The position numbers were made by a program, and so were the translations under genes. The notes beneath the pieces are model-generated. The model worked only from the letters and a program-made list of their open reading frames with translations. It searched no databases and had not been told where the DNA came from. Shown one piece after another: positions 3-10,838 of a DNA stretch of 64,000 nt. Position 1 is the stretch's first letter, and the number at the start of each line of letters is the position of its first letter. Source of the DNA: Deltaproteobacteria bacterium (GTDB lineage Bacteria; Myxococcota_A; Polyangia; Polyangiales; JADJMO01); the NCBI GenBank assembly GCA_025363655.1, contig JANYDK010000094.1:1-64000 (forward strand). The letters are read 5' to 3'.

Positions 3-299
3 GCGCAGCAGGAGCTAGCGCACTCCGTCGCGCTCCAGGACGGCGATCGGCCCGTCATCGGGCTGGATTGCGAAGACCTCGCCTCGATCATGGTGTCCCA
101 GGACGTGGAAAACGAGGCGTTGGGTCAAGCGCGCATGTCCCGCCATTTCCGCAGCCGAGGTTCGCCTCGATCTCGGATGTCCCGGGACCTAGAAAGCGAG
201 GCGGCGCCTCGATCTCGGATGTCTTGGGACCTAGAAAACGAGGCGGCGCCTCAATCTCGGATGTCTTGGGACATCCAGCAGCGAGCGATCGCCGAATGA
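3..299 (+). CDS. 3' end of an unidentified gene, running off the left edge and into repeats
   Basis: An open frame enters from the window edge in frame 3 and stops at 297-299, 7 bp from the end of the convergent sterol-reductase gene. Its first 30 codons end almost always in G or C, as real genes here do, and read as normal protein (…VIGLDCEDLASIM). From codon 27 on, the frame consists of 14-residue repeats around the core SRMSWDLENEAA, with weaker third-position GC bias. The repeat period is 42 bp, so copy-number changes keep the frame. I infer that the 3' end of the gene was extended by tandem duplication. The N-terminal part lies outside the window and the family is not recognised. Confidence 0.45.
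   Translation, partial: AQQELAHSVALQDGDRPVIGLDCEDLASIMVSQDVENEALGQARMSRHFRSRGSPRSRMSRDLESEAAPRSRMSWDLENEAAPQSRMSWDIQQRAIAE
80..288. repeat. Tandem array A: five 42-bp units with terminal inverted repeats
   Basis: Units start at 80, 122 (41 bp, diverged), 163, 205 and 247. Units 3 and 4 are nearly identical. A typical unit opens with CGCCTCG and closes with CGAGGCG, so each can fold into a hairpin, and unit 3 also holds TCCCGGGA. The array lies inside the 3' end of the partial upstream frame. No spacers are present, so this is not a CRISPR array. Confidence 0.85.
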
Positions 300-306
300 C
301 TCGGGC

Positions 307-1467
307 TCAGTACAGGCCGGGGATGATCTTGTACGGCACCTTGTGGCAGTACTCCTGCCAGAGCGCGCCGTATTTGGCCGCGCAGCGCCGGTCGTCATCG
401 GCCTGCCGAGGGAAGAGCAGCGCGACGTAGTAGAGCGGGTAGAGCCAGGCCACCGGGTCGAGCAGCCGGCCGAGCGAGAGGGTGATCCCCGTGGCCATCA
501 AGATTTCGCCGAGGTAGTTGATGTGGCGCGACAGGCGCCAGAAGCCGCTGCAAAGAAGCGACCGCGTGCCGTCGGTGACCGCCTCGGGCGCGATGAGCCC
601 GAGCAGCTTTGCGTCGGGCCGGGTCTTGAACAGGAACTTCTGCAGGTTCGCCCCACGCGAGAGCGCCCAGCCCGAGAAGAACACCAGCGCCGAGACCACC
701 AGCAGCGGCGCAGGGGTATGTAGATAGGTGGCGTCGGCCGCCGACCAGAGCCCGACGCAGTAGAAGAACGGGTAAAACGTCAGGCATCCCCAGCCGAGCT
801 TGAAGCCGGTCCGTTCGGCCACGAAATCGTAGGTGTAGAGGTGCACCCGCTCGAAGAACAGGTATTCGCAGAGGAAGAACGAGAACAGGCCGACGTACAG
901 CGCGACGCCGAGCGACGCGTCGCCGGGATGAGTGAGCACGTGATGGGCGGCGAACGACAGGATGTTCAGCTCGAGCATCACCGCGCCCACCAGGTACAGC
1001 CACATCTTGGCGTCGACCCGGCCGTCGCCCCACTGCGGGTTGGCCAGCCGCCCCAGGTAGAGATCGGCCGGCAACGACTTGCCCGTCGAGGGCGCTGGCA
1101 GCACGATCGCCAGCGTGAACACCAGGCCGAAGGTGCAGGCGCCTGCGAGCGACGCCCACCGCTGCGACCAGAAGTAGTCCCACGGGACAAGACCCTTCGC
1201 GCACGCGGCCGCCCAGAGCCCCAGCGTCACCCACAGCACCAACAGACCGTTGAGCCGGTAGCGCAGCGGCTCGCCCGTGGCCTCGTCGACCACGTAGCCC
1301 GAGACCTTGCGAGCCGGCAAAATCAGGTGCAGCGCCAGCACCAGCGCGTACACCACCCAGGGCGCGAAGAAGCCGAGCGCTGCTCCGCCCGTGCCGCCCG
1401 CGCCGCCGCCCGCTGCGGGTGGGCGCACCACGTCCGCGAAGTCCGCGAAGTCCCCGAAGTCCGTCAT
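307..1467 (-). CDS. ERG4/ERG24-family sterol reductase-like membrane protein
   Basis: The 386-residue, multi-membrane-spanning protein has the C-terminal signature of the ERG4/ERG24 family (sterol C-14 and C-24(28) reductases, lamin B receptor). The segment SRHINYLGEILMA and the ending KYGALWQEYCHKVPYKIIPG match the NADPH-binding C-terminal half of these enzymes. Family knowledge gives reduction of a sterol double bond in a membrane. The exact bond cannot be told from sequence. The chosen ATG overlaps the stop of the upstream SDR gene (ATGA), so the two are probably co-transcribed and translationally coupled. Some myxobacteria make sterols, which fits, but no other sterol gene is visible here. 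A related isoprenoid reductase role remains possible. Confidence 0.8.
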   Translation of the reverse strand: MTDFGDFADFADVVRPPAAGGGAGGTGGAALGFFAPWVVYALVLALHLILPARKVSGYVVDEATGEPLRYRLNGLLVLWVTLGLWAAACAKGLVPWDYFWSQRWASLAGACTFGLVFTLAIVLPAPSTGKSLPADLYLGRLANPQWGDGRVDAKMWLYLVGAVMLELNILSFAAHHVLTHPGDASLGVALYVGLFSFFLCEYLFFERVHLYTYDFVAERTGFKLGWGCLTFYPFFYCVGLWSAADATYLHTPAPLLVVSALVFFSGWALSRGANLQKFLFKTRPDAKLLGLIAPEAVTDGTRSLLCSGFWRLSRHINYLGEILMATGITLSLGRLLDPVAWLYPLYYVALLFPRQADDDRRCAAKYGALWQEYCHKVPYKIIPGLY

Positions 1468-2258
1468 GTGAGATTCTTCGTCGCGGCCTTCATCAAAGAG
1501 ACCGCGGTTGCCCGAGGAAATAGCCGCCCGACGAGGACGCTGGCCAGCTTGTTGACGACGCCCGGCACGATGAGCGGGCCGTGGCCCAGGGCCGCGAGGG
1601 TCTGCTCGGCGACGCGGTCGGCGTCGAGCGTGCCGGGCGCGTCTTTCTTGGCGCTCTGCTGGTAGCCAGGCGTCCTGATGGCGCCTGCGCACGAGACGAC
1701 GACGTCGACGCCCTTCGGCCGCAGCTCGCCCCAGAGGCTCTCGCCGAGCACCCGGATGAACGCCTTGCTCGCTGCGTAGGTGGCAATTCGCGGTGAGCCT
1801 TGGAAGCCGGCGAGTGACGACATCAGCACTACGCCGCCGCGACCTCTTGCCACCATCCCTGGCGCCAGACCGTGGGCGAACGAGAGCGGCCCGCGGACGT
1901 TGACGTCGATGACCCGCAGCAGCTCGTCGAGCGGCCGATCGAGCAGCGGGCCCACCGGCGCGTAGGCCGCGTTGTAGACCGCCACGCCCACCTCGAGCCC
2001 GGCGGTTTCGCGGAGGATGACCTCCATGAACGAGGGCTCGGCGAGATCGCAGGCCACCGTCTTGATGTCGACGCCCCGCTCGGCCCTCAGCTTGGCCGCC
2101 AACGCGTCGAGCAGCGCCGGCCGGCGCGCGACCAGCACCAGGTTCTGCCCCCGCATCGCGAGCGCCTCTGCAAAGGCGGCCCCGAGCCCCTCTGACGCCC
2201 CGGCGATCACTGCCCACGGACCGTAGCGCTTCGGAAATGGTGTCTGCACGGCGGGCAT
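1464..2258 (-). CDS. Short-chain dehydrogenase/reductase (SDR)
   Basis: A 264-residue Rossmann-fold oxidoreductase. The nucleotide-binding loop is GASEGLGAAFAEAL near the N-terminus, NVRG follows mid-protein, the catalytic Ser lies in VLMSSLAG, and the Tyr-Lys pair is YAASK. The start at MPAVQTPF was chosen because the SDR fold begins about 15 residues later; the longer open frame upstream overlaps the divergent gene. The stop overlaps the start of the sterol-reductase-like gene by 4 bp, suggesting action on the same lipid or sterol substrate, for example as a 3-keto or 17-beta-hydroxysteroid type enzyme. This substrate link is inference from context. Confidence 0.85.
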   Translation of the reverse strand: MPAVQTPFPKRYGPWAVIAGASEGLGAAFAEALAMRGQNLVLVARRPALLDALAAKLRAERGVDIKTVACDLAEPSFMEVILRETAGLEVGVAVYNAAYAPVGPLLDRPLDELLRVIDVNVRGPLSFAHGLAPGMVARGRGGVVLMSSLAGFQGSPRIATYAASKAFIRVLGESLWGELRPKGVDVVVSCAGAIRTPGYQQSAKKDAPGTLDADRVAEQTLAALGHGPLIVPGVVNKLASVLVGRLFPRATAVSLMKAATKNLT

Positions 2259-2273
2259 CGTACCCTCGGCGCC

Positions 2274-2915
2274 ATGTCGATGCTCACTCCGTGCACAGCC
2301 TGCGGGAGGCACGTTCGGAGCGGCGCGGCGGCTTGCCCCTTCTGCGACGCGCCGCTCGTCTACGACGAGATCGTGTACGACGAGATCGAGCGCATGCGAC
2401 CCCGCGTGGTCTCGCGGTCGGCGCGCAACGCACTTCTCACCGCGGTCACCGCGGCGGGCGGCACCCTCGCGCTCAGGCTGATGGCAGGGTGCTTCCCGGT
2501 CTACGGCGGCCCGCCGGTCCACACCCACGAGCCTCCTCCGGCAGACGGCACGCCCTGCGAGGACGGAAGTGAGTCGGTGTGGGTCGAGGGTCACTGCGGC
2601 AAGCCATGCAAGACGTCGGGCGACTGCGACGCCGGCACCGCGGGGTGGGCGTCGTGCATCGCGGCGCGCAACATCCAGGGCAGCTACTGCTGGGATCCTC
2701 ACGATTGCACGAGCGACGAGGACTGCGCGCTCGGGCTCGTGTGCGCGCCCTGGAAGTGCAACCCCGAGCAGCTGCAGGCCGGCTGCGTCGACAAGCCCGA
2801 CCAGCGCCTCTGCTTCGCACCGTCGCCCGCTGCCGTCGGCGTGCCGCGTCCGCCGAAGGCCCTCCCCGCGGCGTCGTCCTCCGCGTCGTCGGCCCCCAGC
2901 ACCTCGGGAAACTGA
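2274..2915 (+). CDS. Zinc-ribbon plus Cys-rich envelope protein, hypothetical
   Basis: A 213-residue protein with an unusual order. A CxxC…CxxC zinc ribbon (CTACGRHV…CPFC) is at residues 7-25, followed by a hydrophobic stretch around residues 50-70 that ends in LMAGC, which resembles a lipobox. After that comes a Cys-rich region with repeated C-D/E spacing (CKTSGDCDAG, CTSDEDCALGLVC) typical of secreted myxobacterial proteins, and a Pro/Ala/Ser tail. If the hydrophobic stretch spans the membrane, the ribbon would be cytoplasmic and the Cys-rich part periplasmic. It starts only 15 bp from the divergent SDR gene, so promoters must overlap coding sequence. Function unknown. Confidence 0.65.
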   Translation: MSMLTPCTACGRHVRSGAAACPFCDAPLVYDEIVYDEIERMRPRVVSRSARNALLTAVTAAGGTLALRLMAGCFPVYGGPPVHTHEPPPADGTPCEDGSESVWVEGHCGKPCKTSGDCDAGTAGWASCIAARNIQGSYCWDPHDCTSDEDCALGLVCAPWKCNPEQLQAGCVDKPDQRLCFAPSPAAVGVPRPPKALPAASSSASSAPSTSGN

Positions 2916-2940
2916 AAGGCGGACGGGTAGAGGGATGGGG

Positions 2941-3150
2941 CGTTGACCGGTTCGACGTGGACGTTGAACGGTTCGACGTCGACGTTGGATGGGGCAACGC
3001 GGACGTTGGAATTTTCAATGCGGGCGTTGGATTTTTCAACGTCGACGTTGGATGACTCATCGCCCATGTCGATCGTTTCGACGCGCGCGTAGGGATTTTC
3101 AACGTGCGCGTCGATAGACCAGGAGATGGCGTTGAATGACCGAGAGCCGA
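2941..3150. repeat. Tandem array B: ten degenerate 21-bp units
   Basis: Ten consecutive 21-bp units begin at 2941 and repeat exactly in phase up to 3150. Most start CGTTG and carry a central TTCGACG or TTCAACG. Units 1 and 2 are close to palindromic (CGTTGAAC-G-GTTCGACG). The array lies 25 bp after the stop of the zinc-ribbon gene. All frames stay open because 21 is divisible by 3, giving heptad-like translations on the minus strand (SNVDVEK…), but no start, ribosome site or codon bias supports a gene. Confidence 0.8.
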
Positions 3151-3403
3151 GGTGAACGACGGATCACTTCGCCTACGAGCCGCACGTCGCCGAAGTCGCG
3201 GGTGCGGCAACGCGTGCAACGGCGTCGACGAGGTGAGCGCGCGGCACGACGAACGACGAGTTCCGCTGGCTGAATGCGTCGCGGTCGCCCTACGGCTGAG
3301 GTGATGGATCACAACCGGCCGCCAAGTTGCTTCGGAGCCAGGGGAAATTCGTGACCGATGCTTTCCGTTGCGTTCTTGCCAAGCGTGGGATCGATGGTGG
3401 TGT
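3151..3403. other. Intergenic stretch without recognised feature
   Basis: Between array B and the antitoxin promoter no open frame with coding character or RNA fold was found. Base composition becomes visibly less GC-rich towards the antitoxin, which suits a boundary of acquired DNA. Confidence 0.4.
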
Positions 3404-3432
3404 TTATCTATCTGTAGCCATCTGCTGCAGAT
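3404..3432 (+). promoter_or_regulatory. Candidate promoter and operator of the antitoxin gene
   Basis: A perfect odd palindrome ATCTGC-T-GCAGAT spans 3420-3432, 29 bp before the antitoxin start, and a lone ATCTG half-site lies just upstream at 3410-3414. The AT-rich TTTATCTA immediately before it could be the -10 element. Phd-type antitoxins usually repress their own operon by binding such sites. Assignment is by position and symmetry only. Confidence 0.5.
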
Positions 3433-3461
3433 TGGGCGCACGTCGAAAGGGGACCGCTGCC

Positions 3462-3653
3462 ATGTCCGAGGAAGTGAAGAGCGCGTGCGCGGAGCGCACG
3501 GTCCGTCGGAGCGATTTTCTCAAAGACCCTGGCGCGACCTTGAAACGAGCGGAGCGCGAAGGCCCGGTCGTCGTCCGTGATTCCGCCGGATGCGTTCGAG
3601 CCGTGGTGAGCGTACCGACCAAGTCGCTCCTGAGCCGCAGCGACGACGAGTGA
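3462..3653 (+). CDS. Phd/YefM-like antitoxin
   Basis: A 63-residue protein whose middle (RRSDFLKDPGATLKRAEREG, then PVVVRDSAGCVRAVVSVP) fits the Phd/YefM antitoxin fold: a short N-terminal DNA-binding segment, a helix, then the beta-hairpin PVVV…G…RAVVSV. Start chosen at the ATG after a good ribosome site (GAAAGGGG). Its stop overlaps a GTG (GTGA) that opens the next frame, the coupling typical of toxin-antitoxin pairs. It lies beside a type I restriction operon, a common setting. The family is clear enough, but the partner is not a recognised toxin. Confidence 0.7.
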   Translation: MSEEVKSACAERTVRRSDFLKDPGATLKRAEREGPVVVRDSAGCVRAVVSVPTKSLLSRSDDE

Positions 3654-4160
3654 GCGAGGGCGACGACGTTCCCGTGACCGACCATCCCGCGGTCGATCAC
3701 CTGCGGTTGTGGCTCGAAGCCCAATGCGCGTGCACCTTCGCGAACAAACTATCCGGCACGCGGCGACTCGTCGCTCTCATGCACCTCGCGACACCTCTGG
3801 ACGCGGTCGGTAAGTTCGCCGTCCTCGTGTTCTATCAAGTTCGGACCGACGCTGAGATCGTCGATACGATCCGGTCGCTGCTCAGCGAACCGCGCTACGA
3901 AGGAGCTCACGGCGACGCTGTCCGGCCATCCACCCGACGACATGTATCGCTTTCGTCTCGCTGCGTTTGGTCTGCCGAAGGTCGCCGTTGGTCCGGAGTT
4001 CCCGGACGAGCTCCATGGCCGGCCGCCTTCGCCCTCACCTGCAAATCGCCGAGCACGCTCTCGATCTGCTCGAGCGCCGACCTCAAGTCCTCCGCGATCT
4101 CCGCCGCCAGAACGTGCGGCTCGGGAAGCTTCGCTGAATCCTCCAGCGACTCGTCCTTGA
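3650..4160 (+). pseudogene. Antitoxin partner, apparently frameshifted and truncated
   Basis: The frame opens at GTG 3650, overlapping the antitoxin stop, and reads plausible protein to about 3900 (…TIRSLLSEPRYE). It then degenerates, while the next frame becomes protein-like from the same point (ELTATLSGHPPDDMYRFRLA, then AFGLPKVAVGPEF). Removing one G near 3901-3903 joins the two smoothly, giving about 125 residues. Beyond about 4020 the frame is antisense to hsdM and looks spurious. I infer a one-base insertion plus loss of the true 3' end. The protein family is not recognised, so calling it a toxin rests on context alone. Confidence 0.4.
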
Positions 4161-5535
4161 GCCAGAAGATGTCGAGACTGACCTTGTCTCGTGCGATGAG
4201 CTCGTCGTACTTGAACGCTCGCCACCGCCCTTCGGGATTCTTCTTCTCATCCCAAAGCGCCTTCCGCTGATTGCGATTCTCGGGGTTGTAGCAGCTCACG
4301 AACTCGTCGAGGTCGGCGCGCTTCATGCGCCGCTCCTTGAGCGTGAACTCCATGTTCGTGCGCAGGTCGTAGTACCAGACCTTCTTCGTCCACGGCTCCT
4401 TGGCACCAGGCTTGCGGTCGAAGAAGACGACGTTCGCCTTCACGCCCTGCGCGTAGAAGATGCCGGTCGGCAAGCGCAAGATCGTGTGCACCTCGCACTC
4501 GTGGAGGAGCTTGCGGCGGATCTTCTCGCCGGCGCCGCCCTCGAACAGCACGTTGTCGGGCAAGACGACGGCGGCGCGTCCGTGGATCTTCAGCAGCGAC
4601 TTCACGTGCTGCACGAAGTTGAGCTGCTTGTTGCTCGTCGTCGTCCAGAAGTCGGGCCGGTTGTAGGTGATCGACTCTTTGTCGGTCTCGCCCTCGTCGT
4701 TGACGATGGTGATGCTCGACTTCTTGCCGAACGGCGGGTTCGTCAGGACGACGTCGACGGTGTCCGAGGGCTCGTTCCGGAGGGAGTCGTCGGTGCGAAT
4801 GGGCGGCTGGCGTTTGTCGTCGTCCGGGCCGATGCCGTGGAGGAAGAGGTTCATCGCGCAGAGACGCGACACGCCATCGACGAGCTCGACCCCGCGGAGC
4901 GCCTCGTAGCGGAGCTTCTTCTTCTCGTTCTTGTCGAGCTTGTAGCGCTTCGGGTCGGCGAGATACGCGTGCGCCGACAGAAGAAACCCGCCCGTGCCGC
5001 ACGCCGGGTCGCCGATCACTTCGCCCGGCTTGGGCTGCACGCACTCGACGATGGCGTCGATGAGAGGCCGCGGCGTGAAGTACTGCCCCGCGCCGCCCTT
5101 CACGTCTTGCGCGTTGCGTTCGAGGAGGCCTTCGTAGGCATCGCCCTTCACGTCGGAGGTCATCTCGAGCCACGACTCGTTGCCGATCAGATCGATGACC
5201 AGTCGTCGCAGCTTCGCCGGATCTTGGATCTTGTTCTGCGACTTGCGGAAGATGAGCCCCAGCATCCCTCCCTCTTCTCCGAGCTTCTTCAGCGTGTCGC
5301 GGTAGTGCTGTTCGAGCTTCACGCCCTCCATCTTCGGGTTGGCGAGATCACTCCAGCGGCAACCTTTGGGCACGGTCTGGTCTTCGCCGGTCAGCGCCGC
5401 ACGCTCGTCGGCCATCTTGAGGAAGAGCAGGAACGTGAGCTGCTCGAGGTAGTCCTGGTAGCTCAAGCCGTCGTCGCGGAGGACCTGGCAGTAGTTCCAC
5501 AGCTTCTTGACGATGCGCTCGCTCTGTTCGCTCAT
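3907..5535 (-). CDS. hsdM: Type I restriction-modification methyltransferase subunit
   Basis: A 542-residue N6-adenine methyltransferase subunit. It has the N-terminal helical HsdM domain (about 1-140), then GQYFTPRPLIDAIVE, the AdoMet-binding motif DPACGTGGF (176-184) and the catalytic NPPF (266-269). It modifies DNA as M2S1 and is part of the R2M2S1 nuclease. The ATG start overlaps the hsdS stop by 4 bp. Family-like sequence ends near residue 499 (…LEQIESVLGDLQ); the last ~43 residues are Arg/Pro/Asp-rich, unlike HsdM, and lie antisense to the damaged antitoxin partner. The original stop was probably lost in a rearrangement. Activity may still be intact because the core is complete. Confidence 0.95.
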   Translation of the reverse strand: MSEQSERIVKKLWNYCQVLRDDGLSYQDYLEQLTFLLFLKMADERAALTGEDQTVPKGCRWSDLANPKMEGVKLEQHYRDTLKKLGEEGGMLGLIFRKSQNKIQDPAKLRRLVIDLIGNESWLEMTSDVKGDAYEGLLERNAQDVKGGAGQYFTPRPLIDAIVECVQPKPGEVIGDPACGTGGFLLSAHAYLADPKRYKLDKNEKKKLRYEALRGVELVDGVSRLCAMNLFLHGIGPDDDKRQPPIRTDDSLRNEPSDTVDVVLTNPPFGKKSSITIVNDEGETDKESITYNRPDFWTTTSNKQLNFVQHVKSLLKIHGRAAVVLPDNVLFEGGAGEKIRRKLLHECEVHTILRLPTGIFYAQGVKANVVFFDRKPGAKEPWTKKVWYYDLRTNMEFTLKERRMKRADLDEFVSCYNPENRNQRKALWDEKKNPEGRWRAFKYDELIARDKVSLDIFWLKDESLEDSAKLPEPHVLAAEIAEDLRSALEQIESVLGDLQVRAKAAGHGARPGTPDQRRPSADQTQRDESDTCRRVDGRTASP

Positions 5536-7088
5536 TGGGACTTTCGCGCTCGGCGGGTGGTCTTCGGCGTCTCGGTGTTGGCGCGCTCAGCGCGAATGCG
5601 TCCGAGGAGCTTTTCGGCCGGTTCGTCGGTCGGGTCTTGGTCGACGAGCTTGCCCTCGAATGCCCATTTCAGAACTGCCTGGCGCAGACGCTTGATTCTC
5701 GCGCGCTCAGTCCCCACTTGCTTCTCAACGGCATCGGCGACCGAGAGCAGGCGCGCGGACTCTAGAACGATGCGTTCTTGCTCGGCGCTTGGTGGAAGCG
5801 GGAAGCGCGACTCTTTGAACTTCTCCAACGTCAAGTGGGCGATGTTCGTCGTAATCGAAGCGACCTTCTGAAACACGCGCATCCGAACGTGAGCACGAAA
5901 CACCAGCTGAGCGAACTCGGTCGCGGGTCCTCCCTCCACGGCTCGGAACCGATGAAGGGTCTTCTGAAAGCAGAGCCCCTCTATCCCGCCAAGGTAGATC
6001 GCGCTCTGTCCCACGAGGTGAGGCGACTGCCCTTCACTGACGAGAATGTCGCCCGGTCGCAACACGTACTTCTCGAAGTGTGCCTCGTCGAAGTCCATCT
6101 CCTCGACGTCGCCCAAGTCCACCCGGTCGTCCTTGATGTTCGCGACGCGAAGATATGGACGCGACCACCGGCCCGTGAGGTACTGCGGAGCCCGCTGCCG
6201 TCCCAAAAGAACATCGCCGACTTGATCGACGGATGCCCAACACCAGCCCTCAGGCAGCGGCGGCAGCCCCTTGGCCTCGGGCGCCTTCGGCTCCTCGTAC
6301 TTCGCCCTCCACTTCTCATCCTTCGGCGCTCTGCCAGCCGCCTTCATCTTCGCAAGCTCCGCCTCCTCCCAGCGCCGCCGCCGCTCGGAGAGGATGCGCT
6401 TCAGCAGCACGTCCGCCGACTCGAAGTCACGCTTCTCCGCTCGGGCCAGCGCGGCCTCGGTCGGCACGAGACGGCCTTCGACGGCGGCTTTGAGGACGGA
6501 CGCGCGGTACGCCTTCAGCTTGGCCTGCGCCGCTTTGAGCGACGCGACGGCGGCGTCGAGGCGGGAGAGGTAGTTGTCGAGCGCGTCGACGATTCGATTC
6601 TGTTCTCCAACTGGCGGCACGTTTACCGGCCATCCCGACAGAGCTTCTGCGCCAAGGTGATGAATACCGACTCCACGCGAGGCCTTGGCGAACTCGCCGA
6701 GCATCGCGTCCTTTAGAAAGTGTAAGTGGAAAAACCGCGCGAGCTCCTCACCTGCCCGTACCCGAATCAGCGTGTTCTGAAAGCAATGCAGTCCTGACGC
6801 GCTTGAGTATCGTGCTGGCTTCCCGACCTCTCCGGCGCTCCCCGATGCTTCGGACAAGAGGATGTCACCGTCACGAAGGCGGTAGGTCTCGACCTCCGTC
6901 GGATTGAAGTCCATTTCCTTCACGTCGGTGAGGTCGATGCCGTGCCAAGTTACGTTGGCAGCACGCAGATACGGGACCATGTTCGGGCCTGTGGCGCGTG
7001 CCGGCGACCGCTGACGGCCTAACCGCACCTCCGCGACCTCATCCAGACGAACGCGTGCCCAATGGGCGGGCGTTCCTTGCTCGCTCAT
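5532..7088 (-). CDS. hsdS: Type I restriction-modification specificity subunit
   Basis: A 518-residue HsdS with two target-recognition domains and central and C-terminal conserved helices. TRD1 runs from about 10 to 160 and is followed by the helix with LDAAVASLKAAQAKLKAYR. A charged linker (about 210-270) leads to TRD2 from about 280 to 440, and a second helix follows. The TRDs are recognisably alike: LGRQR (23-27 and 295-299), PYLR.AN (39-45, 311-317), EMDF (58-61, 330-333), LR.GDIL.SE (71-80, 343-352). Similar TRDs should read similar half-sites, giving a nearly symmetric split target. Four-bp overlaps with hsdR and hsdM tie the three genes into one operon. Confidence 0.95.
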   Translation of the reverse strand: MSEQGTPAHWARVRLDEVAEVRLGRQRSPARATGPNMVPYLRAANVTWHGIDLTDVKEMDFNPTEVETYRLRDGDILLSEASGSAGEVGKPARYSSASGLHCFQNTLIRVRAGEELARFFHLHFLKDAMLGEFAKASRGVGIHHLGAEALSGWPVNVPPVGEQNRIVDALDNYLSRLDAAVASLKAAQAKLKAYRASVLKAAVEGRLVPTEAALARAEKRDFESADVLLKRILSERRRRWEEAELAKMKAAGRAPKDEKWRAKYEEPKAPEAKGLPPLPEGWCWASVDQVGDVLLGRQRAPQYLTGRWSRPYLRVANIKDDRVDLGDVEEMDFDEAHFEKYVLRPGDILVSEGQSPHLVGQSAIYLGGIEGLCFQKTLHRFRAVEGGPATEFAQLVFRAHVRMRVFQKVASITTNIAHLTLEKFKESRFPLPPSAEQERIVLESARLLSVADAVEKQVGTERARIKRLRQAVLKWAFEGKLVDQDPTDEPAEKLLGRIRAERANTETPKTTRRARKSQ

Positions 7089-9952
7089 GCCGCCAGTACC
7101 TCATTCAACTCACGCACGATCTCCGGCAAATCCTTCCCAAACACCTTGCTCGCCCTCGCCAGCCCACCCTCAACGGTAAACGGCGTGAGATCGAAGTCCT
7201 CGACCTCCATCTCCAAGCTCGTCGCGATGTGGTCGCGCATCATCCCTAGCCATTGCCTCTGCTCGTCGGAGAACGCACGCCCTTTGTTCTGTTGCTGCGC
7301 GAGCCAGCCCTCGAACCGCGCCTGCACCCGCTCGACGTGCGGGACGAGCTCGCCCTCTTGGTGGAGCGCGAAGCGGACGAGCGACACCATGTCCGTGAGG
7401 AGCCGCCCGGCGGAAGCGCCGCGCACCTTCGACCGCTCCAGCGTCTCGTACGCGCGCCAGAGCTTCTCCGGGGTCCACGATCGCGGCGGCGCCTTCATCG
7501 CATCGGCGAGCTTCTGGATGTCGGCGAAGCGGAGCCGCTTCTTGTGGGGCAACGAGTAGAAGAACTGGAGGGCGTCGATCTCGTCCTTGTGCTCGGCGAG
7601 GTACTCCTCGAACGACTTCACCAGCTTCGCGGCCTTCTCCTTCGCCTCGGCGCTGTAGCCGGTCTGCGAGTCGACGAGCTTGTCGATGCTGACCTCGTCG
7701 ACGACCTGCTCGAACCGCTGTCGGAGATCGATGAGGAGCCGTCGCAGCGCGGGCGTCTGCATGAGCGGCGCGATGGCGGCCTCTTTCAGCGGCTTCGACG
7801 CCTTCTTGAGCTGCTCGTCGGTCGGCTCCTCCTCCACAGCGAGACCGAAGACGCGACGGGCCTCGGCGTCCTGGACGTCGGCGTCGAGCGCGTGGATGAG
7901 CGCGTTCGAGATGTCACGGAGCGTCGGTCCGCCGGTGACGTCGTGCACCTGTTGCCGGTCCTCGGGTGCGCATTGCTTGTCGATGCGGGCGATGCGGCTG
8001 GCCAGCGACGAGAGGTAGTCGCTCTTGGTGCCCTTCGCCGCGACGTGATCGAGCAAGAGCTTGAGAGAGAGGGTCGGGTTCTTCTCGAGCGGTCGAGTGT
8101 CGGGGAGCGTGTGCTCGGTCACGCCGACGCAGTCGACGATGAGGAAGTGGGTCTTCGCCTTGGCGTCCGGGGTCACCGCGCGCAGGTCGTCGACGTTGAT
8201 GACGCGAACGCCGCGACCTTTCATCTGCTCGAACAGCACGCGCGACTTCACGCTGCGCATGAAGACCACGATCTCGACGGGCTTGATGTCGGTGCCGGTG
8301 GCGATGAGGTCGACGGTGACGGCGACGCGCGGATAGTAGCTGTTGCGGAAGCTCTGGATGAGATCGGCCGGCTTCACGCCCGTGACCTTGTAGGTGATCT
8401 TCTGCGCGAACTCGTTCCCCTTGCCGAACTCCTCGCGCACGATGCGCACGATGTCCTCGGCGTGGGAGTCGTCCTTGGCGAAGATGAGCGTCTTCGGCAC
8501 CTCTGTGCGGTCCGGGAACGTCTCCTTCAGCACGCGGTCGCGGAACGTTCGGACGATGAGGCGAATCTGGTCGACGGCGACGACGTTCCTATCGAGATCG
8601 CCGGCGGCGTAGGTCATGTCGACGTCGGGAGACTCCCACCGCGTCCGGCGCGTCTGTCGATCTCGGTAGCCGAGCATGACGCCGGGAGCGGCCTCGACCT
8701 TCGAGCCCTGCGCGGTGATCTCGGTTCGAATCTTGTAAACCTCGTAGTCGCAGTTCACGCCGTCGACGACGGCTTGCTCGTGTGGGTACTCCATCACCAC
8801 GTTCTGGTGGAAGAAGCCGTACGTGTGCTTCGCGGGCGTCGCCGTGAGGCCGAGCAGGTGCGCATCGAAGTACTCGAGCACCTGTCGCCAGAGCGAGTAG
8901 ATGCTGCGGTGACACTCGTCGATGAAGATGACGTCGAAGTACTCGGGCGGGATGGCCTTGCTGTAGACGACCGGCAGCGGCTCCTTGTGCACGTCGCCGC
9001 CGCCGTCGTCGAGCGGCGTGTGCTCGTCTGCCTCTGGATCGAGCTCCGGCTCGCCCTTGAGGATGGAGTAGAGCCGCTGGATCGTCGAGATGACGACCTT
9101 GCTCGACGAGCCAATCGTGTTCGACCCGAGCCGCTGGACGCCGTACAGCTCGGTGAACTTGCGGTTGTCGTCCGGCGTGCGGAAGCCCTGAAATTCCTTC
9201 TCGGCCTGCTCCCCGAGGTTCGCGCGGTCGACGAGGAAGAGGACTCGTCGCGCACCGCCGAACTTGATGAGGCGATAGAGCGTCGTCACCGCGAGGAGCG
9301 TCTTGCCGGTGCCCGTCGCCATCTGGATGAGCGAGCGCGGGCGATCGTCGAACAAGCTCTTCTCGATGTTCACGACCGCGCGGACCTTGTTGGGCCACAT
9401 GCCGGGCAGTTCCACCGGCGGCATCGCGCGCAGGCGAGCACGCAGCGTCGACGGCTTCGTGTCGTCGGCTGCGGTGTAGAAGCCACCGGAGAGCTTGATC
9501 CACCCGTCGAGCGTGTCGGCCGTGAGCCAGTCGCGAAGCGTCTCCGGCCTATGGAACGAGAAGACCTCGCGCGTTCGCGGATGAGGATCGAAGTGGTTGA
9601 TGAACGCCGTCTCTTCGCCCGTCGAGATGTACGCGAAAGGCAGCGGCTTGAACGGCGCCTCCAGCTCGTCGGGGAGCCCCTCGACGTACTTCTTCGTCTG
9701 CATCTCGACATTGCGAACGAGGAAGCCGGCAGGTTTTGCCTCGCAGACGCCGATCGCTCTTCCATCGAGAAAAAGCAGGTAGTCCGCGAACCCGTGGCCC
9801 TTGTCGAGCCTGAACTCTCGGACGGCGACTGCCGGGACCGAGACGTTCATGTCATCGCGGTCTTGCAGGACCCAACCCGCCTCTTCGAGAAGCCGGTCGA
9901 TCTTGGCCCGCGCGCGGGCCTCCGGAGCGTTCTGGCTACCCGCCGGAGACAT
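7085..9952 (-). CDS. hsdR: Type I restriction endonuclease/translocase subunit
   Basis: A 955-residue motor-nuclease. The N-terminal PD-(D/E)xK nuclease shows D57 and E71-A-K73. A superfamily 2 helicase follows with Walker A ATGTGKT (212-218), the DECH box (345-348), TATP (370-373) and a motif VI-like QMKGRGVR. The C-terminal part resembles the EcoEI-type R subunit that docks to the methylase. It cuts unmodified DNA after ATP-driven translocation. It is the first gene of the operon, so the order is R-S-M rather than the commoner R-M-S or M-S-R. All motifs are intact. Base composition is less GC-rich than flanking genes, in keeping with acquisition by transfer. Confidence 0.96.
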   Translation of the reverse strand: MSPAGSQNAPEARARAKIDRLLEEAGWVLQDRDDMNVSVPAVAVREFRLDKGHGFADYLLFLDGRAIGVCEAKPAGFLVRNVEMQTKKYVEGLPDELEAPFKPLPFAYISTGEETAFINHFDPHPRTREVFSFHRPETLRDWLTADTLDGWIKLSGGFYTAADDTKPSTLRARLRAMPPVELPGMWPNKVRAVVNIEKSLFDDRPRSLIQMATGTGKTLLAVTTLYRLIKFGGARRVLFLVDRANLGEQAEKEFQGFRTPDDNRKFTELYGVQRLGSNTIGSSSKVVISTIQRLYSILKGEPELDPEADEHTPLDDGGGDVHKEPLPVVYSKAIPPEYFDVIFIDECHRSIYSLWRQVLEYFDAHLLGLTATPAKHTYGFFHQNVVMEYPHEQAVVDGVNCDYEVYKIRTEITAQGSKVEAAPGVMLGYRDRQTRRTRWESPDVDMTYAAGDLDRNVVAVDQIRLIVRTFRDRVLKETFPDRTEVPKTLIFAKDDSHAEDIVRIVREEFGKGNEFAQKITYKVTGVKPADLIQSFRNSYYPRVAVTVDLIATGTDIKPVEIVVFMRSVKSRVLFEQMKGRGVRVINVDDLRAVTPDAKAKTHFLIVDCVGVTEHTLPDTRPLEKNPTLSLKLLLDHVAAKGTKSDYLSSLASRIARIDKQCAPEDRQQVHDVTGGPTLRDISNALIHALDADVQDAEARRVFGLAVEEEPTDEQLKKASKPLKEAAIAPLMQTPALRRLLIDLRQRFEQVVDEVSIDKLVDSQTGYSAEAKEKAAKLVKSFEEYLAEHKDEIDALQFFYSLPHKKRLRFADIQKLADAMKAPPRSWTPEKLWRAYETLERSKVRGASAGRLLTDMVSLVRFALHQEGELVPHVERVQARFEGWLAQQQNKGRAFSDEQRQWLGMMRDHIATSLEMEVEDFDLTPFTVEGGLARASKVFGKDLPEIVRELNEVLAA

Positions 9953-10118
9953 TACAGAGTCTCTCTAGCGATAAGCGGCTCATGGCGCTCGGTCGCCGTC
10001 GACGCCGTGTGCCCGGAAGCGACCATCGCGCCAAAGGCTACAGCGGCGGCGCGGTGTATCAAGGACCATCGGACATTCTCAGCACGGCAGTGAACGGGTG
10101 GCGCGCAGCGGGAGCTGA
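9953..10118. other. Region upstream of hsdR
   Basis: This stretch should carry the hsdR promoter on the minus strand, though no convincing -35/-10 pair stands out. At 10101-10116 it contains a 16-bp string matching 15 of 16 bases at 1-16, the sequence that precedes array A. Confidence 0.35.
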
Positions 10119-10454
10119 GCCGCTGTCGCTAGCCGAGTCGACTCTCTTCCAAGGGTCGACGAGTCACCATCGGACCGACTCCGCTGTCACCAGACGATCG
10201 ACGAGTGAGCTCGAGACTGAGTCCGCTCTCGTTTCGGGGTCCGCAAGTCACCATCCGACCGACTCGACTCAGGCAAGAGCCTCGAAGAGTCACCATCCGA
10301 CCGACTCGACACAGCCAAAGGCCGCGAAGAGTCAGCGTCCGACCGACTCGACTCAGGCAAAAGCCTCGAAGAGTCGCCGTCCGACCGACTCGGCTCAGCC
10401 AAATGAGTCCACGCCTCGGCCTCAGGCTCACTCGGGTCGGTCCCGAGGACATCG
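10119..10454. repeat. Tandem array C: six to eight 42-bp hairpin units
   Basis: Clear units start at 10161, 10203, 10245, 10287, 10329 and 10371, each 42 bp. Decayed units flank them at 10119 and 10413. The core holds GAGTC and GACTC boxes in inverted orientation around a small stem such as AGGC-AAGA-GCCT, so each unit can fold into a nested hairpin. Variant units replace the inner stem by other self-complementary bases (GCC-AAA-GGC, GGCT-C-AGCC). A frame through the array (9982-10476, plus strand) reads 14-residue repeats (SHHPTDSTQ…) but lacks a ribosome site and the usual GC-rich third positions, so I treat it as non-coding. Confidence 0.85.
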
Positions 10455-10481
10455 GGGTCCATCTCTTGGAGTGTGACGGAC

Positions 10482-10838
10482 CTACAAATCGTAGTCAGGA
10501 AGATGCGAGTGCTGGATGCACTTGCAAGGCCTCGGCTCGTCGTCCACGACGACGACCGGCTTCGGATGGGGCTTGGGCTTCGCCACCGGAGCGGGCTGCG
10601 GCGTCGGCGCGATGGCAGCGATCGCCTCCGGCGCGAGCTCGACCAGCGCGTGCTCTGCTTCGATCGTCGTCGGCTGCGCCGACTGCGCCGCTTGCCCATG
10701 CAGGTCGGTCTCTCGCGCGCGATCGGCGAGGATCGGCACATCGGCCCGAAGCTCGCCATCGACGTGGCGCGCCTCCCCTCGGCAGCCAGTCATGAGCAGA
10801 GAGACGGAGGCGCCGACGAGGAGAAAGATCGACCGCAT
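10482..10838 (-). CDS. Small lipoprotein, hypothetical
   Basis: 118 residues with a signal peptide (MRSIFLLVGASVSLLMTGC) ending in a lipobox, so the mature protein should start at Cys19 and be lipid-anchored. The rest is Ala/Pro/Val-rich, with a proline-lysine run (APVAKPKPHPKPVV) like a periplasm-spanning spacer, and a CKC near the end. It lies 14 bp downstream of the MFS gene on the same strand and is probably the last gene of that operon. No family recognised. Confidence 0.7.
   Translation of the reverse strand: MRSIFLLVGASVSLLMTGCRGEARHVDGELRADVPILADRARETDLHGQAAQSAQPTTIEAEHALVELAPEAIAAIAPTPQPAPVAKPKPHPKPVVVVDDEPRPCKCIQHSHLPDYDL

Follow-up and report, generated by a model that had tools for sequence, protein, structure and literature searches.

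Our analysis of three tandem arrays (A, B and C) points to families of short, noncoding, non-autonomous intergenic elements that are built from units of 21 or 42/43 bp and that spread as wholes, a reading to which we give a probability of roughly 0.6. The arrays lie in a window of 64,000 nucleotides (contig C33 of a 9.04-Mb genome in 150 contigs). Support comes from element C, whose modules occur in a fixed order and whose head and tail are common to its copies. The best reading would be a new, non-autonomous family of modular elements between genes, similar in kind to BOX and BrickBuilt. Streptococci, enterobacteria and Porphyromonas have small modular repeats that are well described, but none are described from Polyangiales, as far as the literature shows.

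An earlier note on this DNA had reported three arrays differing in sequence. Using TRF, we located all three at approximately the coordinates first given (A at 163-272, period 42; B at 2941-3054, period 21; C at 10246-10403, period 42/84, with the best score at 84), and local autocorrelation gave spans of 83-340, 2898-3147 and 10131-10480, respectively. Over the whole 64-kb window the top repeat lag was 42 (0.85), followed by 84, 21, 63 and 126, well above the control, in which none of 30 dinucleotide-shuffled versions of the 64 kb exceeded 0.53. B and C are indeed unrelated in sequence.

Table 1. Arrays, modules and neighbouring genes of the window.
Feature	Position	Strand	Description
Array A	80..288	.	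About five 42-bp units, 5' side degenerate; arms CGCCTCG...CGAGGCG, core related to GATGTCCYGGGACATC
Terminator-like hairpin	239..253	-	TGAGGCGCCGCCTCG then TTTTCT, in array A; consensus match only
ERG4/ERG24-type sterol reductase gene	307..1467	-	Array A starts 19 bp beyond stop codon
Cys-rich predicted lipoprotein-like gene	2274..2915	+	Array B starts ~20 bp beyond stop codon
Array B	2936..3150	.	About ten dyad-symmetric units of 21 bp with consensus TGGANNNTTCAACGTCGACGT; 3-nt centre varies
hsdM	3907..5535	-	Type I R-M methyltransferase; neighbour, outside element
hsdS	5532..7088	-	Specificity subunit; neighbour
hsdR	7085..9952	-	Restriction subunit, EcoEI_R_C; neighbour
Element C	10119..10471	+	Orientation head to tail; 3' end truncated compared with the other copies
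C head module (module 2)	10203..10244	+	GAGTGAGCTCGAGACTGAGTCCGC...GGTCCGC; common to all six copies
C middle modules	10245..10370	+	Three 42-bp repeats, GAGTCRCCRTCCGACCGAC...
C tail modules 7 and 8	10371..10454	+	...CAGCCAAATGAGTCCAC / GCCTCGGCCTCAGGCTCACTCGGGTCGGTCCCGAGGACATCG
Predicted small lipoprotein gene	10482..10838	-	Element C starts 12-28 bp beyond stop codon

Modular anatomy of element C

Five related copies of C are present in its own genome (in the window and on contigs C6, C69, C105 and C62), all with unrelated flanks, and a remote copy lies on C142. Among 317 other genomes of the class, C was not found except at one contig end in genome G108 (G108:C138), which holds a sixth copy sharing the head module. 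The first 146 bp of that sequence (L137:1-149) are 99% identical to the starts of two contigs of our own genome (L145 and L060), a match that may reflect a shared insertion sequence or misbinning, and we set the G108 copy aside from the cross-family evidence as possibly misbinned.

Written out in steps of 42 bp, the copies show an entry module, then a distinctive head, a middle that varies and two tail modules. The head carries AGCTCGAGAC; one tail module ends in CAGCTCGCCCAAATGAGTCCAC and the next in CGAGGACATAG. Beyond module 8, other copies continue into a further conserved tail that is missing from the window copy. Mean best module identity is 0.85-0.87 between copies, as against 0.70-0.72 within a copy. 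When the copies on C6, C105 and in G108 are compared, the end modules always pair with the partner at the same position, and the middle modules best match another middle module or an entry module. Aligned across 464 bp, C6 and C105 show 87 mismatches and no gap. Over all pairs of C copies we counted 25 gap openings per 1002 mismatches, compared with 22 per 257 in a baseline of 19 pairs of other dispersed noncoding repeats from which the C pair had been removed; the low rate fits a constraint on spacing, although the compared pairs are not independent. From the shared module order and the few gaps, we infer that the C array formed before the element spread and that its length has been kept since. 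Its 42-bp module order and register are maintained through 15-27% divergence.

We propose that each such element would spread in one piece, probably through mobilisation in trans. Insertions just past stop codons would be tolerated because nothing essential is interrupted there, and the unit length would be held if each unit carries a putative binding site or hairpin that needs a fixed spacing, whether for the mobilising protein or for a host protein. Against a mobile element, GTCGAC-like words at the ends of C form no clear inverted pair, the 5' start varies between copies, no target-site duplication was found for the copies other than that on C62, and a copy number of 5-6 is low next to BOX or REP. 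The C62 copy (L078:12320-13254) has a 41-bp direct repeat of 95% identity on either side, which resembles a short ORF's 3' end and was possibly made on insertion. Searching our own genome for a mobiliser of the Y1 family returned one Y1_Tnp protein (IS200/RAYT-type, G000:C70:53415-53750), with no known array nearby. A phage or plasmid origin was dropped, as C had no match in phages and plasmids and the A core had none in viral contigs.

The anatomy of C can be set beside several described elements. BOX elements of Streptococcus follow the order boxA-boxB(n)-boxC and are intergenic, dispersed, RNA-foldable and thought to be parasitic (PMC3049150). C is BOX-like in that fixed end modules surround variable tandem middle modules, and in being dispersed and intergenic. 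Unlike BOX, it has a 42-bp GC-rich unit, few copies, end modules in the 42-bp register and no known mobilising insertion sequence; the likeness is one of anatomy, with no relation in sequence claimed, nor any homology expected given the GC-rich myxobacterial host. In Porphyromonas gingivalis, the BrickBuilt MITE consists of a leader, 23-nt repeats and a tail, and the 464/PgRS elements have 41-nt repeats and repetitive flanks too (PMC4596501). These also place a minisatellite inside a dispersed intergenic element, and their 23 and 41 nt are near our 21 and 42. However, they have recognisable terminal inverted repeats and, in some cases, target-site duplications, neither of which is clear in C, and they differ from it in phylum and sequence. 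Finally, the REP/BIME repeats (GTAG- or CGTC-tagged; PMC3733652, PMC2817692) share with the window arrays extragenic palindromes in regular arrays, whereas ours are low in copy number, have no demonstrated tag by a defined stem, form long head-to-tail arrays and occur in a genome where one Y1 transposase was found. Membership of the REP/RAYT group was rejected on copy number: against the more than 100 copies that would mark it, we counted 5-6 of C, two of A and two of B.

Position past gene ends and folding potential

At 14 of 16 array sites, a gene's 3' end is closer than a 5' end (sign test ~0.004). The count used genes predicted with a simple script and manually fixed ends for four of them (B's neighbour, genes at two M. 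rosea loci and an esterase, which adjoins the M. rosea A array and was placed on the minus strand); it omits a seventeenth site, in genome G069, where gene calls are unreliable. This position would be expected if the arrays work at the RNA level, each forming a chain of hairpins in a 3' untranslated region that terminates transcription or guards the 3' end of an mRNA; for REPs, roles in terminating transcription and stabilising mRNA have been proposed (PMC3733652, PMC2817692). Folding also beats that of shuffled sequences in all three arrays (z = -3.8 for A on the minus strand, -6.0 for B and -3.8 for C), and the terminator-like hairpin of array A, with its TTTT, lies on the same strand as the adjacent sterol reductase gene. 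However, C can run with or against the gene that it follows, no covarying pairing ladder appeared across 32 C units, the alignment of the C tail contains almost no compensatory pairs, and Rfam gave no match near the arrays at gathering score. We consider a role in RNA possible, if on the unlikely side.

A structured RNA family defined by covariation was dropped as a candidate, as compensatory base changes were not found in C. Coding repeats were dropped as well, since no frame stays open over the five own-genome C copies and stops occur in all frames. The earlier suggestion that the periods preserve reading frames was not supported: stop codons occur within the arrays, and 43 cannot be divided by three.

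Unit length, symmetry and relatives of the arrays

Array A has one relative in its own genome, on C62, and homologues with a period of 42 or 43 in G130 (Minicystis rosea DSM 24000, 16,040,666 bp; PMC8436480) and in G069, from another genus; the palindromic core GATGTCCYGGGACATC recurs in the A family of these three genera. In M. rosea DSM 24000 the homologue of A is at 10,707,210-10,707,740. Array B has one relative (G000:C79:8534-8707). All three arrays had been described as built from inverted-repeat units. This is clear for B, where dyad symmetry is significant (P<0.0005), and moderate for A (P=0.007, with P<=0.001 in its relatives), but weak for C (P=0.16 in the window, and not significant in most C copies).

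Sampling in this work reached ~1.76 Mb in our own genome and, in M. rosea, 0.8 Mb. The proposal of a shared period class was examined in sampled DNA that had not been picked for its arrays. Noncoding arrays had periods of 63, 33, 72/73, 42 and 21 in the former and of 43, 43, 42, 21, 34, 50 and 54/55 in the latter. Periods of 21, 42, 43 or 63 thus recur in 7 of ~12 noncoding array families (63, 42 and 21 in our genome; 43, 43, 42 and 21 in M. rosea), a small count grouped after the data had been seen, while the others, at 33, 34, 50, 54/55 and 72/73, fall outside the class.

This recurrence of 21- and 42-bp units across unrelated families, together with the rarity of indels in C and the presence of the A core in three genera, would suit phased sites for a DNA-binding protein, either a regulator or a nucleoid protein, lying on one face of the helix. 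Exact phasing at 10.5 bp, as put forward in the earlier note, does not hold generally: the power of AA/TT/AT/TA at 10.5 bp is at chance level in A and B and the signal is missing from most other arrays, being present in some C copies, in the M. rosea A array and in M. rosea L180 and marginal in the relative of B. Furthermore, the A family occurs at both 42 and 43 bp, both in M. rosea and in the A family 43-bp arrays are just as frequent, and a period of 43 undercuts the argument from exact 10.5-bp turns as well as that from multiples of three. With the unconvincing dyad symmetry of the C unit and the few loci per genome also counting against them, we regard phased binding sites as unlikely. 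Phased A-tract curvature was dropped because the 10.5-bp signal is missing in A and B.

The arrays could also be ordinary minisatellites that grew in situ through slippage, and the earlier note had offered hairpin-driven slippage as one origin. The M. rosea A-type array, with an identical 84-bp higher-order repeat, agrees with such growth, and so does the best score of the window C array at 84. For C itself, this explanation is already contradicted: copies at unrelated loci share their module order and unique end modules, and C is not a product of local slippage because its related copies share ordered modules. For the arrays as a whole, we find growth by slippage doubtful and decidedly unlikely.

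Returning to elements that spread as wholes, C adjoins the 3' ends of genes, and unrelated families have the same class of unit length; with the register that C maintains, this offers a clear way to ask whether selection acts on spacing as such. One conserved protein or process acting on spacing rather than on sequence might explain why several unrelated intergenic repeat families in Polyangiales would keep strictly to units of 21/42/43 bp and to sites just past stop codons, and these would then form a common class of phased elements at 3' ends; we give this wider generalisation only a slim chance.

Several further repeats were seen in the course of this work. A palindromic dispersed family with a 72/73-bp period (GCTTCGGCAACCGAGCGGAGCGAGATTGACCGAAGCGGCC...) occurs at L031, L143, L051 and L064, all contig starts, and at L071:18598-18861; being often at contig ends, it probably breaks the assembly. 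M. rosea has an intergenic 54/55-bp tandem family with GGGGCCGCAAGCGGCCCC hairpins (L166:15833-16128, L122:18598-18775 and L179:12917-13129). In our own genome, an intergenic 63-bp repeat with two hairpins lies immediately upstream of a gene (L033:1-226, G000:C16), and an intergenic 21-bp array (GTCAANGCCRTG...; L141:1481-1666, G000:C142) is unrelated to B and lacks dyad symmetry.

Genes around the arrays

B and C had been described as flanking an antitoxin and a type I R-M system, and arrays were suggested to border defence islands. A complete hsdR-hsdS-hsdM block does lie between B and C, but the identity of the antitoxin was not borne out, as neither Pfam nor PADLOC gives an antitoxin match for the ORF in question (3462-3653). 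A role for the arrays as sites of recombination or integration that mark the edges of defence islands, as this block and the lack of one beside the same transporter in the closest syntenic relative (L182) might suggest, is extremely unlikely, since B and C are unrelated and cannot recombine together by homology, and the 58 genes in this small sample of six other array loci showed no R-M gene and, among the PADLOC matches listed, no clear defence gene. Coincidence is the most likely reason why B and C lie on either side of the R-M genes, given the lack of a clear defence gene at those six loci. Their 58 genes include kinase, TPR, VWA and sigma-54 genes along with genes of no known kind. The PADLOC matches there, of which 25 of 39 matched families are listed, are mostly to kinase-type models (PD-T4-6, C3a189, MkoA), plus mad6, and the kinase-type models match four proteins, in agreement with the four Pfam kinases.
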